Assembly: GCF_011008935.1 (NCBI RefSeq)
Contig: NZ_JAAIVJ010000002.1
Span: 124,001-188,000 of the forward strand
DNA length: 64,000 bases
Direction: 5' to 3'
Source of the DNA: Tabrizicola oligotrophica
GTDB taxonomy: Bacteria; Pseudomonadota; Alphaproteobacteria; Rhodobacterales; Rhodobacteraceae
Under the pieces are notes generated by a model. That model saw only the letters and a list, made by a program, of their open reading frames with translations. It was not told the origin of the DNA and ran no database searches. Of the stretch, positions 33,463-42,627 are shown piece by piece (position 1 is the first letter of the stretch; each line of letters starts with the position of its first letter). A program made the translations under genes and the position numbers.

Positions 33463-33989
33463 GGCCGCACCTCCACTGGCGTGCCGATCCGCGTCACCGC
33501 CCAGATTTCCTCGATCTGGGCATTGGTCAGCGCAATGCAGCCCGCCGTCCAGTCCCCCTTGGCCCGCATGCCTGCCGGCATGGCATTCGGCTGGCCATGC
33601 AGCATGATGTCTCCGCCTGGATCATAGCCGGCCTTGCGGGCGCGGACGCGGTCCTCGGGTTGCGGATAGTCCAGCCCCAGCGACAGGTGAAAGCGCGAGC
33701 GGTCGTTGCGCCGGTCAATGCGGAACACCCCTTCCGGCGTACGGCCATCGCCTTGCTGCAGCTTGTCGCCCACCGGTGCAAACCCCAGCGCCACCGGATA
33801 GCTGCGTACCGCCCGCCCGTCCTGCCAGAGAGTCAGCCGACGTGCGGCCTTTTCGACGACGATCCGGTCGACCATGCCGCTCAAAGGCGGCAAGGGCGGA
33901 ACCGGCGGGGCTGACACAGGGCGCAGCCAGACCGTCGCCGCGAGGGCCAGCAGTGCCAGAACCAGAACCAGCCGGGCGAGCCGTTTCAT
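33459..33989 (-). CDS. L,D-transpeptidase (YkuD) family protein
   Basis: This 176-residue protein has an N-terminal signal or anchor (RLARLVLVLALLALAATVWL) and a YkuD domain: DRIVVEKAARRLTLWQDG, VALGFAPVGDKLQQGDGRTPEGVF, HGQPNAMPAG and the Cys motif DWTAGCIALTN. The catalytic Cys is present; the usual HGC is replaced by AGC, so activity should be confirmed. It may crosslink peptidoglycan or anchor lipoproteins. It overlaps the PatB-like gene by 4 nt. Confidence 0.87.
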   Translation of the reverse strand: MKRLARLVLVLALLALAATVWLRPVSAPPVPPLPPLSGMVDRIVVEKAARRLTLWQDGRAVRSYPVALGFAPVGDKLQQGDGRTPEGVFRIDRRNDRSRFHLSLGLDYPQPEDRVRARKAGYDPGGDIMLHGQPNAMPAGMRAKGDWTAGCIALTNAQIEEIWAVTRIGTPVEVRP

Positions 33990-35161
33990 TGCAGGTCGGC
34001 AAAGGCCTTTTGCAGCCGCGCCACCGCCTCGGCCACCACCGCGCGCGGCGTGGCAAGATTGAAGCGCAGGAAGCTGTCGCCGCCCAAACCAAAGCTGTCG
34101 CCATGGTTGGCCGCAATCCGCGCGCCCTGCTCAACCCGGCTGGTGAATTCGGTCGCGGTCATGCCGGTGCCGGCGAAATCGACCCAAGCCAGATAGGTCG
34201 CCTCCAACGGCATCGACCGCACGCCCGGAATGGCATTCACCCCGGCGTCGAACAGCTTGCGGTTGCCGTCGAGATAGGCCGTCAACTCATCGACCCAGGC
34301 TGCTCCCTCGGGCGAATAGGCCGCGGTCGCCATGAACATTCCGAAGGAATTCGGCGAAATGCCCATCGCCATCATCCGGTCGGCAAAGCGCTGCCGCAGC
34401 GCCGGGTCCGCGATGATGACATTGCCGGTGTGGGCGCCGGCGATGTTGAAGGTCTTTGTGGTGGCGGTCATCATCACCAGCCGGTCGGCGATCTCGGGTG
34501 CGGCCTTGGCCATCACCGTATGCTTCTGCCCCGGCATCATCAGATCGCTGTGAATCTCGTCCGACAACAGGATGAGGTTGTGGCGCCTGGCAAACTCCGC
34601 CACGCCACGCAGTTCCTCGACCGTCCAGACCCGCCCGCCCGGATTGTGCGGCGAACACAGGATCATCATCGTCTCCCGCCCGGTCATCCGGGCATCCCAG
34701 GCGGCGAAATCCATCTCGTAGCGGCCGTTCACCAGCGCCAGCGGGCATTCCGTCACTCCGCGCCCGGCAGCTTTGATGACCCGCGCGAAGGCGTGATAGA
34801 CCGGGGTCGTCAGCACCACCTGATCGCCCGGCTTGCTGAAGGCGTCGATGCACATCGAGGTGCCGTTCACCAACCCATGCGTGGTGAAGATGTGGTTGCG
34901 CTCCACCTCCCAGCCATGCCGGGTCTTCATCCACCAGCGGATCGCATCCAGATAGGCCAGATCATCGCCATAATAGCCATAAACCCCATGCGCCAGAACG
35001 CCTTCCAGCGCCTTTTGCACGCAGGCCGGCGGGCGGAAATCCATATCGGCAACCCACATTGCGATGCCGTCGCTGGCCGGCACGCCAAAGGCGCTTTCCA
35101 TCGAGTCCCACTTGACGGAATGGGTGCCGAAACGGTTGATCGGGGTATCAAAGTCGGTCAT
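33986..35161 (-). CDS. PatB/MalY-type PLP aminotransferase, probable cystathionine beta-lyase
   Basis: This 391-residue fold-type I PLP enzyme begins FDTPINRFGTHSVKWDSM, then MWVADMDFRPP, VYHAFARVIKAAGR, CSPHNPGGRVWT, LLSDEIHSDL and the PLP-lysine region TATTKTFNIAGAHTGN. The order is that of the MalY/PatB group, which splits cystathionine to homocysteine, pyruvate and ammonia. It overlaps the L,D-transpeptidase gene by 4 nt (ATGA) and is divergent from def. Confidence 0.9.
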   Translation of the reverse strand: MTDFDTPINRFGTHSVKWDSMESAFGVPASDGIAMWVADMDFRPPACVQKALEGVLAHGVYGYYGDDLAYLDAIRWWMKTRHGWEVERNHIFTTHGLVNGTSMCIDAFSKPGDQVVLTTPVYHAFARVIKAAGRGVTECPLALVNGRYEMDFAAWDARMTGRETMMILCSPHNPGGRVWTVEELRGVAEFARRHNLILLSDEIHSDLMMPGQKHTVMAKAAPEIADRLVMMTATTKTFNIAGAHTGNVIIADPALRQRFADRMMAMGISPNSFGMFMATAAYSPEGAAWVDELTAYLDGNRKLFDAGVNAIPGVRSMPLEATYLAWVDFAGTGMTATEFTSRVEQGARIAANHGDSFGLGGDSFLRFNLATPRAVVAEAVARLQKAFADLQ

Positions 35162-35227: not shown

Positions 35228-35743
35228 ATGATCCGCCCCATCCTGATCCATCCCGACCCGCGTCTGAAAAAGCCCTGTGAGGGTGTTGCCGAAGTCACAC
35301 CCGACCTTCGGACCTTGGCGCTGGACATGCTGGAAACCATGTATGACGCGCCCGGCGTCGGCCTTGCGGCGCCACAGGTCGGCGTGTTGAGCCGGGTGAT
35401 CGTGATGGATTGCATCAAGGACGGCCCGCCGGAACCGCTGGTGCTTTTGAACCCGCGGGTGATCTGGTCCTCCGAGGATGTGAATGTCTATGAGGAAGGC
35501 TGCCTGTCAATCCCTGACCAATATGCCGAGGTGAAGCGCCCGGCCTCGGTGACGGTGGAATGGATGGATCTTGACGGCGCGCGGCAGGAACGCACCTTCA
35601 CCGGGCTTTGGGCGACCTGTGTGCAGCACGAGATCGACCATCTCGATGGCAAGCTGTTCATCGACTATCTCGGCCCGCTGAAGCGCCAGATGATCACCCG
35701 CAAGATGGAAAAGCTGAAGCGTGAACGCGCGCGGATGGCGTGA
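35228..35743 (+). CDS. def: Peptide deformylase
   Basis: This 171-residue metalloenzyme removes the formyl group from new proteins. All three motifs are intact: GVGLAAPQVG (44-53), EGCLSIP with metal ligand Cys92, and QHEIDHLDG with His134, catalytic Glu135 and His138. It precedes a paralogue and fmt, the usual def-fmt order. Longer upstream in-frame sequence is antisense to patB and not coding. Confidence 0.96.
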   Translation: MIRPILIHPDPRLKKPCEGVAEVTPDLRTLALDMLETMYDAPGVGLAAPQVGVLSRVIVMDCIKDGPPEPLVLLNPRVIWSSEDVNVYEEGCLSIPDQYAEVKRPASVTVEWMDLDGARQERTFTGLWATCVQHEIDHLDGKLFIDYLGPLKRQMITRKMEKLKRERARMA

Positions 35744-36246
35744 TGGCCGTCCGCCGCTGCCTGTCCTGGCCGAACGCCTGTTTGAAAACACCCGCTGCCG
35801 AGGTGGCTGCGATCACCGACAAGGTGCGGGCGATCTGGGCCGACATGGTGGACACCATGGACGCGATGCCGGGCTATGGCCTTGCGGCCGTGCAGATCGG
35901 CATTCCGCTGCGGCTTGCGGTGGTCGATTGCTCCGAGACGCGGGGGCAGGCGATCCTGATGGCAAATCCCGAGGTCTTGCACGCCTCGATCCAGCCGCGT
36001 GAGCATGAAGAAGCCAGCCCCAACCTGCCCGGAGTTTCGGCCGTCATTTCGCGCCCGCGGGCGGTGACGGTGCGGTTCCTGAATGCGGCGGGTGAGGTGG
36101 AGGAGCGGGATTTCGTCAATCTCTGGGCGACTTCGGTGCAGCACCAGATCGACCATCTGGCCGGCAAGATGTATTTTGATCACCTCTCGCCCTTGAAGCG
36201 GAAGATGCTGTTGGTCAAGGCTGAAAAGCTGAGGAAGCGGGCATGA
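35743..36246 (+). CDS. Degenerate peptide deformylase paralogue
   Basis: This 167-residue protein aligns with the neighbouring Def without gaps through the three motifs. Motif 1 is kept ([10 protein letters not shown]). Motif 2 reads EEASPNLPG, so ligand Cys92 is Ser92. Motif 3 reads QHQIDHLAG, so catalytic Glu135 is Gln135, with both His kept. Classical deformylase activity is therefore unlikely. It starts at ATG 35743, overlapping the def stop by 1 nt (TGATG; GTG 35740 is an alternative), and overlaps fmt by 4 nt. It may be a regulator or ribosome-binding decoy, or have another activity. Confidence 0.85.
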
Positions 36247-38982: not shown

Positions 38983-39057
38983 GATCTTGCGTCGTGATTG
39001 GCCGCCCGCCAGAGACATCCGCGCCCGATATCTTGCCCGGCGGCGAGAATTTCGCCT

Positions 39058-41007
39058 ATGCTGCATGCAGAACAAGAGGCCAAATCAATTGGCCTGCCAG
39101 ATGAGGCAACGGTGGCAAACGCAAGGAAGGCCAAGGCGCCGGTTGACGCCAGCGATCGCCCGCGCGGCGCGGCTGCGCTTTGGGGTACGGTTCCCTTTGG
39201 CTTGAAACGGCACGTCAGCCCGCACGGTCAGGTGACGGCGGTTTCAATGATGAAGGACGAAGGACCATTCGTCATCGAATGGGTGGCCCATCATCTTGCT
39301 GTCGGCTTTACCGATCTGGTTGTTTATACGAATGATTGTTCGGATGGCACCGGCGACATGCTGATACGGCTTGAGGAGTTTGGCCTCTGCCACCACCGCC
39401 GGAATGTCATTCCAGAGGGCATTCGCCCACAACCCTCGGCGCTGAACCACGCGCAGGACGAACCCGTGGTCGGGCAATCCGATTGGGTGATGGTGTTTGA
39501 TGCGGACGAGTTCCTGTCGATCAGATATGGCAACGGGACGCTGGATGACCTGATCGGCGCGGCGAAAGCGCAGCAGGCAAATGGCATCGTGGTCACCTGG
39601 CGGATTTTCGGCTCGGGCGGCGTGGTGGACTGGAGCCGCGCGCCGGTCAGCGAACAGTACCTGCTGGCCGCACCGCAAAGCTGGAACAAGGGCTGGGGCG
39701 TAAAGACGCTGTTCACCTTCGATCCGGATTACTGGAAGCTCGGTATTCACCGACCCAAGATGAAGACCCGCCACATCAAGACCGAGTTTCCCGATCAGGT
39801 AAAATGGCTGAACGGCTCGGGCCGCGAGATGGAGGACTATTTCAAGTTCCGCGGCTGGCGGTCGATCACCCGCACGGTGGGCTATGACTGGGTGCAGTTG
39901 AACCACTATGCAGTGAAGTCGGTCGACAGCTACGCAATTCGCAAGATGCGCGGCAATGTCAACAACAAGGCTGACAAATATAACAGCGATTACTGGAGCT
40001 TGCAGGACAGGAACGAGGTTCGGGACGACACGATGCTGCGCTATTCCGAGGCGCGGAACCGCATCATCGGGCAGCTTCTGGCGGATCCGGAGCTGAACCG
40101 GCTGCATCAGGCGGCCGTGGCCCGGGCCGAAGCGCGGCTGGCGGACCTGAAGCAGACCGAGGCCTATCACCAGTTGGTGGCGGATCTGGCGACGGCCTCT
40201 GCGGTGCCGATTTCGCAGATCGTCGCCAAGCCACCGCAGGCACGGGACAAGGAAAAGATCGCCGCGCTGATGTCGGACGTGGAAAAGCAGCGCGGGGCCA
40301 AGGCGAAGGCGGACCGCAAGCTTGGCCCAAGGGAGCCGCCGGTCGAAGCCGTGCCGATGGGGGCCTACAATCCCGGCCCGATTGACCTGTCGGGCGATCT
40401 TTCAGTTGAGATCTTCGCCAATCACAGCATGAAGCTGCCGCTGGATCACCGGGTCTTTGCCGCGCATGTCTTGCCGCTGATCCAGAGTGGAAAATTCGAG
40501 CGGGGATTGGCCCGCAAGATGCCTTTGGTGCTGCCAAAGCAGGCGCGGGCGCTGGAAATCGGGTCTGCGGTCGGCTTTCTGGCGGGGCATTGCGCCAATA
40601 TTCGAACGGATATTCACTTTACCCTGCATGAGGACGATCCGGGCCTGCGGGAGATGCTGCAAATCGTCTGTCAGCTGTCCAACAGGTCCTTCAATGACAG
40701 GTTCGTGCTGTCGGACAGGCCGCTCGTTGACCTTGTGGCTGACACGCAGCGTCTGATTTCCGAGACCGGCCCCACCAGCCTTTTGCTTGCCGACGCGCGG
40801 CTTTCGCCCGAGATCCTGACAAAAGTCCTGTCGACGATGCCTGGCTCCGCGCCCGTGCAAGTCTTCCTTTACGGCAGGTGGCTGGAGATCTGGCACGACC
40901 GGATCGGCGAGGTTTCGAACCCGCTGCAATCGCTGGGGTACCGCCCGACCGACAGCTTTGACCCCAATATTTGCCGGGGTTTCAGCATGGGCGGCTTGCC
41001 CGGATGA
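39058..41007 (+). CDS. GT2-type glycosyltransferase with C-terminal methyltransferase-like domain
   Basis: This 649-residue protein has two domains. The first (about 75-340) is a GT2/PF13704-type transferase: VSMMKDEGPFVIEWVAHHL, YTNDCSDGTGDML, the DxD in VFDADEFLSI, and QLNHYAVKSVDSY. A helical linker rich in Lys/Ala follows. The C-terminal part (about 475-640) starts ALEIGSAVGFLAGHCA, a Rossmann SAM-type motif I, then DIHFTLHEDDPGL, resembling a degenerate FkbM-like domain. The joint suggests sugar transfer plus a second, possibly structural, function. Confidence 0.77.
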   Translation: MLHAEQEAKSIGLPDEATVANARKAKAPVDASDRPRGAAALWGTVPFGLKRHVSPHGQVTAVSMMKDEGPFVIEWVAHHLAVGFTDLVVYTNDCSDGTGDMLIRLEEFGLCHHRRNVIPEGIRPQPSALNHAQDEPVVGQSDWVMVFDADEFLSIRYGNGTLDDLIGAAKAQQANGIVVTWRIFGSGGVVDWSRAPVSEQYLLAAPQSWNKGWGVKTLFTFDPDYWKLGIHRPKMKTRHIKTEFPDQVKWLNGSGREMEDYFKFRGWRSITRTVGYDWVQLNHYAVKSVDSYAIRKMRGNVNNKADKYNSDYWSLQDRNEVRDDTMLRYSEARNRIIGQLLADPELNRLHQAAVARAEARLADLKQTEAYHQLVADLATASAVPISQIVAKPPQARDKEKIAALMSDVEKQRGAKAKADRKLGPREPPVEAVPMGAYNPGPIDLSGDLSVEIFANHSMKLPLDHRVFAAHVLPLIQSGKFERGLARKMPLVLPKQARALEIGSAVGFLAGHCANIRTDIHFTLHEDDPGLREMLQIVCQLSNRSFNDRFVLSDRPLVDLVADTQRLISETGPTSLLLADARLSPEILTKVLSTMPGSAPVQVFLYGRWLEIWHDRIGEVSNPLQSLGYRPTDSFDPNICRGFSMGGLPG

Positions 41008-41074
41008 CAAACTGGACTTGCCGCCATCGCTGCGGCAGTGTTGCGAAAACAGAAACAAATGAGGCCCGAGTATC

Positions 41075-41890
41075 ATGTCGACCCCTGTCCGCCGCCCTGT
41101 TGCCTCGCTCTGGATCGGGGAAAGGCTGCATTACCTGAACCAGCTTTGCTTGCTCAGCCATGTCCGGCAAGGACACCCGACGACGCTTTACTGCACTGAC
41201 AAGGTATCGAACGTGCCCGAGGGGGTGATCGTCAAACCGGCGACGGAGATCATGTCGGTCGACATGGACATCGTGCGGCAGACCTCGGAATCCTTCCTGT
41301 CCAACGTCTTTCGTTACAAGATGATTCAAAAGACCGATGCGGTGTGGATCGACTGCGACGCCTATTGCCACAGGCCCTTCCCCGACGAGATGACCCATAT
41401 CTTTGCGGGGCACGGCTTTCGTGGGGCGCTGAATTGCGGGGTGGTCTACATTCCGCAGAAGGGCGCGCTGATGGATCAGCTTCTGGACTATTACGACAAC
41501 CTGCCCGAGGCGCCCGCCTGGTTCAACAAGCAGCAGCGCAAGAAGATCGACAAGCAGGACCGGTCCCTGCCGCAGGCCGTGCGGATCTACAACGCCGAAC
41601 GCACCGCCTTTGGCCCGCAGGCCTTCACCTACTTCGCGCAGCAGACCGGCGATTATGAACGGGCGCTCACTCATGATGTGCTTTACCCGGTGCCGTTCCA
41701 GTTGAATGATGTGTTCTACGACCCGCATTGCAACGTCGAGGGGCATTTTACTGACGCCACGCTGTCGGTGCATCTCTACACCAACGGCACCCGCCCCTGG
41801 TGGCGCAAGAATCCGCCGCTGCCCGGTTCCTATGCCGACCGGATGTGCAAGGTCGAAGGCGTCGATCCGGCCGGGGCGCTCGAGGAATGA
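41075..41890 (+). CDS. Glycosyltransferase with DxD motif, Gb3/capsular type
   Basis: This 271-residue protein reads SLWIGERLHYLNQLCLLSH, then FRYKMIQKTDAVWIDCDAYCHRPF with a clear DxD, GALNCGVVYIPQKG, and HLYTNGTRPWWRKNPPLPG. The order resembles the GT32/alpha-1,4-glycosyltransferase group. It lies 67 nt after the bifunctional GT2 gene and overlaps the FkbM methyltransferase by 4 nt, so the three likely build or modify one surface glycan. Confidence 0.75.
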   Translation: MSTPVRRPVASLWIGERLHYLNQLCLLSHVRQGHPTTLYCTDKVSNVPEGVIVKPATEIMSVDMDIVRQTSESFLSNVFRYKMIQKTDAVWIDCDAYCHRPFPDEMTHIFAGHGFRGALNCGVVYIPQKGALMDQLLDYYDNLPEAPAWFNKQQRKKIDKQDRSLPQAVRIYNAERTAFGPQAFTYFAQQTGDYERALTHDVLYPVPFQLNDVFYDPHCNVEGHFTDATLSVHLYTNGTRPWWRKNPPLPGSYADRMCKVEGVDPAGALEE

Positions 41891-42627
41891 GCGACAAGGA
41901 CGAGGATCTGCCGGAGGAAGCCACTGGCAGGCGTAGCAGGAAAGGTAATAAACCCAGAGTATTGCCTTCAACCCCTGAGGAAGTTGACGCCCTGGTCCGG
42001 CGGCAGAAGCGCAACCTGCGCAAGGCCTGGGCCGAGGGCTATCTGACGGCGGTCACAGCAATGTTGCGGCCCGGCGATCTGGCGGTCGATTGCGGTGCGA
42101 ACATGGGAGTGGTGACGGAGCGGTTGGCCGCGACAGGCGCGGATGTCATCGCCTTTGAACCGGACCCCTTTGCTTTCAAGACGCTTGAACAAAAGTTTGG
42201 AAACCTGCCGAACGTTACGCTCGTCAACGCGGCGGTCGGGGTGGGGACGGGCACGGTTCGGCTGATGCGGGCCGACAATTTCGGGGACAATCCGGAAGGG
42301 GCCTCGGTCAAGTCGACCATTCTCGACGGCGGCCGCCGGATTGATGCGGAAAACTCGGTTGAGGTGCCGCTGATCGACTTCCCGTCCTGGGTTCAGCAGC
42401 AGATCAAGGCGCGCGGCGAGGTGGCTTTCGTCAAGATGGACATCGAGGGGGCGGAACTCGACATCCTTGAGAAGATGCATGCCGAACAAGGCTTCGTTAA
42501 CCTGCGCTGCCTGGTGGCCGAGACCCATGAACGCAAGTTCAAAGACCTGCGTGACCGATACAAGGCGCTGCGTGAGGCGGTTGCAGAGGGCTATGCGCCG
42601 GGCAAGGTGAACCTCGACTGGATCTGA
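41887..42627 (+). CDS. FkbM family methyltransferase
   Basis: This 246-residue SAM-dependent O-methyltransferase has motif I VDCGANMGVVTERLA, EPDPFAFKTLEQKF and the FkbM hallmark FVKMDIEGAELDILEKM. It has a charged N-terminal tail. It is coupled by ATGA to the glycosyltransferase upstream and ends exactly where the convergent alpha-glucosidase ends. It probably methylates a sugar of the same glycan. Confidence 0.88.
   Translation: MSDKDEDLPEEATGRRSRKGNKPRVLPSTPEEVDALVRRQKRNLRKAWAEGYLTAVTAMLRPGDLAVDCGANMGVVTERLAATGADVIAFEPDPFAFKTLEQKFGNLPNVTLVNAAVGVGTGTVRLMRADNFGDNPEGASVKSTILDGGRRIDAENSVEVPLIDFPSWVQQQIKARGEVAFVKMDIEGAELDILEKMHAEQGFVNLRCLVAETHERKFKDLRDRYKALREAVAEGYAPGKVNLDWI

Follow-up and report, generated by a model that had tools for sequence, protein, structure and literature searches.

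A fixed, apparently inactive peptide deformylase homologue encoded next to fmt in Rhodobacteraceae

Background

Why would a peptide deformylase (PDF) gene whose product has lost residues of the active site be kept between a canonical def and fmt? The question is raised by a locus of Tabrizicola oligotrophica within the 64,000-nucleotide stretch analysed here, hereafter the window (NCBI RefSeq assembly GCF_011008935.1, contig NZ_JAAIVJ010000002.1, positions 124,001 to 188,000 of the forward strand). The canonical def is designated copy A, the fmt-proximal gene is designated copy C, and a third gene that accompanies them in some relatives is designated copy B. Residues are given in Escherichia coli numbering unless stated otherwise.

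Deformylation is essential and is an antibiotic target. In PDF chemistry, the backbone NH of Leu91 stabilises the formyl oxygen and Glu133 is the catalytic acid/base. The metal is bound by one Cys and two His (PMC5591237, in the part available). According to the available passages of Lamberioux et al. 2025 (PMC12690207), duplicated PDFs are common and largely unexplained, inactive accessory PDFs are already known, clustered PDFs occur in 98.1% of Rhodobacterales reference species with a run of three in 62.5% of those genomes, and the rationale of these clusters is called elusive. The clusters described there are the same as those treated here; in those passages the copies are not split, and a fixed fmt-proximal Ser/Pro/Gln is not reported. 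No report that separates the cluster into three types, or that describes a fixed fmt-proximal Ser-Pro-Asn/Ser/Gln signature, was found in the open-licence literature, nor were data on copy C that concern activity, metal, ribosome or phenotype. The word 'deformylase' is absent from the main text of a Rhodobacter sphaeroides Tn-seq study (PMC5513736), and the available part of PMC3024229 concerns the deformylases of Bacillus subtilis only.

Methods

Residues of copy C were read in 113 loci from 113 genomes of the family, which are a subset of the C-bearing genomes detected. Thirty of these loci came from an evenly drawn search, 23 were the best-scoring loci of a second search, and 60 were picked by hand, many of them more distant. 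Two loci that represent the window genome again (L001 and L002) were excluded before counting. Two of the 113 stretches (L016 and L039) contained no Def, and in L020 it was cut by a contig end. Where a locus contained two PDFs, they were assigned by position as A and then C, and the motifs agree with this assignment. A set of 80 named loci, which are the best 80 of at least 582 relatives and include many metagenome bins, was also used; it includes Tabrizicola, Pseudorhodobacter, Gemmobacter, Cereibacter, and Roseovarius, and it overlaps in part with the 113 genomes.

Residues of the C-terminal tail were counted on full open frames, without gaps. Rates of substitution were calculated by the method of Nei and Gojobori, and pairs outside 0.1<dS<1.5 were removed, which left 378 of 406 pairs for copy A, 88 of 136 for copy B, 366 of 435 for copy C, and 326 of 406 for fmt. 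Locus L187 was excluded as a copy of L182.

Results and discussion

The def-fmt locus of the window

The features of the locus are listed in Table 1. A profile search of the 3.85-Mb window genome gave exactly two matches to PF01327, which adjoin each other. The first is def, whose motifs (GVGLAAPQ, EGCLS, and QHEIDH) are all intact, and the second is copy C; copy B is absent from this genome.

Table 1. Coordinates of features of the def-fmt locus, in positions of the window.
Feature	Position	Strand	Basis or remark
def (copy A), canonical peptide deformylase, 171 aa	35228..35743	+	PF01327 E 2.2e-49
TGATG, def stop / copy C start, 1-nt overlap	35741..35745	+	sequence; def stop 35741-35743 and copy C ATG 35743-35745 share a base
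copy C, putative pseudo-deformylase, intact ORF of 167 aa	35743..36246	+	PF01327 E 2e-36
motif I GYGLAAVQ, retained in copy C	35872..35895	+	Gln51 = E. coli Gln50
motif II rebuilt, EASPNLP vs EGCLSIP (Cys90Ser, Leu91Pro, Ser92Asn)	36010..36030	+	sequence
motif III rebuilt, SVQHQIDH vs CVQHEIDH (Cys129Ser, Glu133Gln)	36133..36156	+	both His retained
basic C-terminal helix of copy C, residues 150-166	36190..36240	+	helix in predicted model
ATGA, fmt start / copy C stop, 4-nt overlap	36243..36246	+	sequence; copy C stop 36244-36246 overlaps fmt ATG at 36243
fmt, methionyl-tRNA formyltransferase, 300 aa	36243..37145	+	TIGR00460 E 1.3e-83, 280.8 bits (cut-off 201.5)

A preliminary description of this DNA stated that the second deformylase has lost the Cys and Glu of the active site and is coupled to both neighbours, and both statements were borne out. 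In the numbering of the protein itself, Ser92 occupies the Cys position and Gln135 that of the catalytic Glu, His134 and His138 are present, and the gene overlaps def at TGATG and fmt at ATGA. The substitutions named there were correct for Ser and Gln, but Leu91Pro, Ser92Asn, and Cys129Ser had been missed; relative to Def, copy C carries Gly89Ala, Cys90Ser, Leu91Pro, Ser92Asn, Cys129Ser, and Glu133Gln. When compared with the motifs of a competent PDF, copy C has motif I (hydrophobic-G-hydrophobic-A-A-X-Q), EASPN in place of EGCLS in motif II, and HQIDH in place of HExxH in motif III. Since the Cys ligand, Leu91, and Glu133 are replaced, three parts of the known PDF mechanism are gone, and we infer from these residues that copy C is a fixed, apparently inactive pseudoenzyme of the PDF family. 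Departures from the PDF motifs are no proof of inactivity, as active type 3 PDFs of Trypanosoma brucei illustrate (PMC12690207, available passages).

Copy C nevertheless scores as a PDF. Its Pfam Pep_deformylase (PF01327) score is 125.4 bits against a cut-off of 22.8, and it passes the cut-off of the NCBI equivalog TIGR00079 'peptide deformylase' (117.1 against 103.95 bits), so that tallies of active PDFs may include copies of this kind. The AlphaFold model of copy C (pLDDT 96.6) ends in a helix formed by residues 150-166 and aligns with the E. coli iron-PDF 1xen over 165 residues (Z 27.1, rmsd 1.5, 36% identity). Copy C thus shares with type 1B PDFs (E. coli Def and Vibrio cholerae Def1) the full-length fold, both His, Gln50, and, in the predicted model, a basic C-terminal helix, whereas Cys90, Leu91, Ser92, Cys129, and Glu133 of these enzymes are all replaced. 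Substitutions in the catalytic motifs, as in copy C, are also found in type 3 or inactive accessory PDFs of Staphylococcus aureus, Streptococcus pneumoniae, trypanosomes, and archaea; these proteins are described in the available parts of the sources as weakly active or inactive, with some of those of T. brucei active (PMC12690207, PMC5591237). Unlike type 3 PDFs, with which it was compared only by their description in these parts, copy C has motif I essentially kept with motifs II and III changed, a type 1B-like helix, one fixed signature characteristic of a bacterial family, and a position in a def-fmt operon.

Conservation of the substitutions and of gene order

The preliminary description proposed an alignment of relatives, in which Ser and Gln would be fixed unless the orthologues keep Cys and Glu and the window shows local decay. 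Ser90, Pro91, Gln133, His132, His136, and Gln50 were each found in 113 of 113 copy C sequences, as were Ser129 and Trp31 in the alignment; Met41 was found in 112 and Asn92 in 105. Fixation of Ser and Gln was thereby confirmed, and retention of Cys and Glu by orthologues is excluded for the genomes examined. In the 80 named loci, copy C has Ser90, Pro91, Ser129, and Gln133 in 80/80, of which only Ser90 and Pro91 are unbiased because this set was chosen in part by a motif containing Ser129 and Gln133. Def of the same loci is canonical in both sets: Cys, Leu, Ser, Glu, and both His are present in 111/111 and copy A is canonical in 77/77 of the named loci. Presence of Ser and Gln in all 113 relatives means that copy C is not a product of local decay; a decaying gene or pseudogene is ruled out by this fixation together with the low dN/dS reported below.

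These counts also bear on the idea that copy C acts as a weak or conditional deformylase, as type 3 PDFs may under oxidative or metal stress, which is very improbable. The acid/base Glu is lost, a change hard to reconcile with deformylase activity, and 111 of the 113 stretches also encode a canonical Def. On the other side, two pocket Cys have become Ser, which could lower sensitivity to oxidation, and a conditional role has been proposed generally for motif-deviant PDFs (PMC12690207, available passages).

The fullest locus has the order A (def), B, C, fmt. Ordering by the start of the open frames gave ABC-fmt in 44/80 and AC-fmt in 30/80 of the named loci, and copy B is present in 59 of the 113 loci; the earlier statement that the gene is locked between def and fmt therefore holds in the window but not in those 59, where copy B lies between def and C. 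In 108 of the 113 loci, fmt lies downstream of copy C in the same orientation, at a distance of 150 nt or less in 100; in the remaining five it was not found in the fetched stretch. Stop and start of C and fmt overlap in 43 of the 108 loci measured, with fmt starts picked by script, and the gap exceeds 150 nt in 8 of the 108.

Putative ribosome-docking helix

Helix 150-166 of copy C is the counterpart of the helix with which E. coli PDF docks on the ribosome. The E. coli helix binds uL22 through L149, K150, R153, and K157 and 23S rRNA through K160 and R163 (PMC12690207), and PDF and methionine aminopeptidase (MAP) compete at that site (PMC8712518), as stated in the available parts of these papers. 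Lys or Arg is present at positions 150, 157, and 160 in 113/113 copy C and 111/111 copy A sequences, and in only 2, 2, and 4, respectively, of the 59 copy B sequences. Position 153 is Arg in 4/113 copy C and 0/111 copy A sequences; it is Met in 102/113 of the former and Met or Leu in nearly all of the latter. Position 163 is basic in 36/113 copy C sequences against 111/111 for copy A. The median net charge of the tail after HxxxH is +7 in C and A and -2 in B, and it is positive in 113/113 copy C, 111/111 Def, and 1/59 copy B sequences. The helix columns of copy C are not more conserved than the rest of the protein (1.19 against 1.12 bits of entropy; 0.67 against 1.02 bits in copy A). From these residues and charges, docking of copy C on the ribosome is plausible, perhaps more weakly than that of Def.

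Copy B (for example, L006:1019-1474) is intact in its motifs (Cys in 58/59 and Glu in 58/59), and 59/59 sequences carry Arg44 and Trp64. Its tail is acidic and without the basic contacts, its dN is about twice that of A or C, and it is often missing.

Distribution and loss of copy C

In one evenly drawn search, a relative of copy C was found in 102 of 120 family genomes, and in a second search in 146 of 149 (absent in G092, G172, and G214); these counts were made by score (a best match of E 3.8e-41 or better), not by reading of motifs, and the best match of the single-PDF genomes was E 1.8e-38 or worse. Of the 18 genomes without copy C in the first search, 17 have one PDF and in one none was found. 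When these 17 and two genomes from the second search were searched again, each of the 19 yielded one PDF gene, canonical in motifs II and III, and fmt was present in 18 of the 19 fetched stretches. Copy C was thus apparently lost several times and is dispensable in some lineages.

Outside the family, no dead PDF resembling copy C was found. The pattern QHQxDH lay in copy C in 6/6 family genomes among 387 genomes of the class, and it occurred in 36/36 family genomes among 397 of the phylum; 24 of the 33 outside-family matches in the class were opened and none was in a PDF gene, and neither of the matches in 2 of the 361 other genomes of the phylum was in a PDF, although these pattern searches are blind to dead PDFs with other substitutions. 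In a protein search of 241 genomes of the class (237 outside the family), outside matches had at most 45% identity among the matches listed, and the 26 best-scoring outside-family loci all contained a canonical def.

Gene order and distribution are the evidence by which copy C may be judged as a non-catalytic partner of Def or Fmt, that is, as the subunit of a mixed dimer or an allosteric subunit, kept at a fixed ratio by translational coupling and acting off the ribosome. That fmt follows C in most loci, that the two genes often overlap and that both junctions overlap in the window agree with such a partnership, as does the slightly greater divergence of Def in C-less genomes than Fmt predicts (one-sided p 0.026, kinship ignored). 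It is nonetheless unlikely: 19 related genomes manage with a canonical def and without C, nearly all of them with fmt in the same stretch, def-fmt loci without C occur outside the family too, and the most conserved part of copy C is the presumed pocket and not an outer face (see below).

The divergence of Def was examined as a signal of C loss in its own right and rejected as weak. Divergence beyond the Fmt prediction in 16 C-less against 102 C-bearing genomes gave the above p value by a Mann-Whitney test, uncorrected, with positive residuals in 10 of the 16, and Fmt of C-less genomes is more diverged as well. Def is more variable at positions 126 and 128 where C is missing, but these positions were also set aside as a signal, as they vary in some C-bearing Defs and in outgroups (126 mostly Leu, 128 mostly Thr). 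Four Defs from single-PDF loci (L275, L270, L281, and L284) have long branches of 0.61 to 0.98, and the Fmt proteins of these genomes are diverged too. The sole deformylase of the C-less genome G043 (L267) is of the A type, but its GFAAVC ahead of motif III is among some residues that resemble those of B, and its motif I reads GSGLAATQ; it may be close to the ancestor of A and B or may be a recombinant.

Phylogeny and selection

A tree of 132 PDFs groups the copy C sequences in one clade (100/100; stem of 0.87 changes per column) and those of copy B in another (100/100; stem of 0.51). Copy C attaches to the outgroup by a long branch, 56 of 129 inner branches are open, and the bootstrap had not converged; as the positions of both copies with respect to Def and the outgroups are weak, no claim is made as to which Def gave rise to C. 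On this weakly supported gene tree, the label 'A only' requires 13 changes, at least eight of which are forced by supported branches, and the scatter of single-PDF genomes points to several losses. In our preferred reading, copy C has a single origin, which predates the radiation of Rhodobacteraceae or falls in its early part.

Tests of selection, which had been suggested at the outset, indicated strong purifying selection on copy C. For 30 near loci, the median dN/dS rose from 0.136 for C through 0.170 for A and 0.186 for fmt to 0.298 for B, and many of the dS values were close to saturation; on 326 shared pairs, the median dN was 0.136 for C and 0.138 for A. Conservation was highest in the presumed shell of the former active site: its entropy in copy C was 0.34 against 1.12 bits elsewhere, and 0 of 5000 shuffles were as extreme. 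Conservation also peaks in the shell in A (0.12 against 1.02 bits), where it is higher than in C, and in B (0.83 against 1.63 bits). At nine sites, A and C are each at least 90% fixed but for different residues, and five of these sites belong to the presumed shell. Selection keeps the rebuilt pocket of copy C and not a scaffold alone, since conservation of the protein is highest there; because the same holds for A and B, the test shows that the pocket is kept, not for what purpose.

Two further explanations are touched by these values. It is scarcely credible that copy C is a relic kept only because its removal would disturb the coupling of def and fmt, to which the overlaps at both of its ends in the window would correspond: its dN/dS is as low as that of def, its rebuilt pocket is conserved, def-fmt loci without C exist, and in a minority of loci the distance from C to fmt is above 150 nt. 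A gain of function would fit the invariant rebuilt centre and the conserved pocket as well as a loss does, and copy C could then be an enzyme of new chemistry that uses Ser90 with the two His, Pro91, and Gln133, with a different metal geometry or no metal, on formylated or otherwise N-blocked substrates. With three elements of the known mechanism gone at once, this is distinctly unlikely.

Proposed role of copy C

A copy that is apparently dead throughout the family, as constrained as the active enzyme and with its centre rebuilt, points to a non-enzymatic role in the processing of nascent chains. The regulatory or ribosome-associated role suggested in the preliminary description is partly supported, namely by the fixation of Ser and Gln, by strong purifying selection and by the basic residues kept in the helix. 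Our tentative preference is that copy C is a dead, ribosome-docking pseudo-deformylase that occupies the tunnel exit or formylated nascent chains. It would share with Def the uL22/uL32 docking site close to the tunnel exit; N-formylated nascent chains may still enter its pocket, and the formyl group would be left in place. In that case it would work as a naturally occurring substrate trap, or as a competitor, and the moment at which particular chains become accessible to Def and methionine aminopeptidase would depend on it. The most economical function for copy C is such a role as trap or competitor, docked at the tunnel exit and not deformylating; we infer loss of activity, docking, chain binding, and the regulatory effect alike.

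A bolder version, in which copy C is specialised in reading the formyl group, as a naturally trapped deformylase docked on the ribosome that retains formyl-Met nascent chains at the tunnel exit and decides which chains are deformylated, with B as a ribosome-free deformylase, is unlikely. If it were true, catalysis and docking would be divided between two duplicates, B and C, and a layer of control would act on N-terminal methionine excision. To our knowledge, such a layer is known from no other bacteria.

Neighbouring genes in the window

An ORF at 33986-35161 on the reverse strand, divergent from def, presumably encodes a PLP-dependent aminotransferase of the MalY/PatB type, and the reading frame of def is open far into the antisense of this ORF. 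Downstream, a run of ORFs at 38998-42627 on the forward strand is taken by us to encode glycosyltransferases and an FkbM-type methyltransferase.
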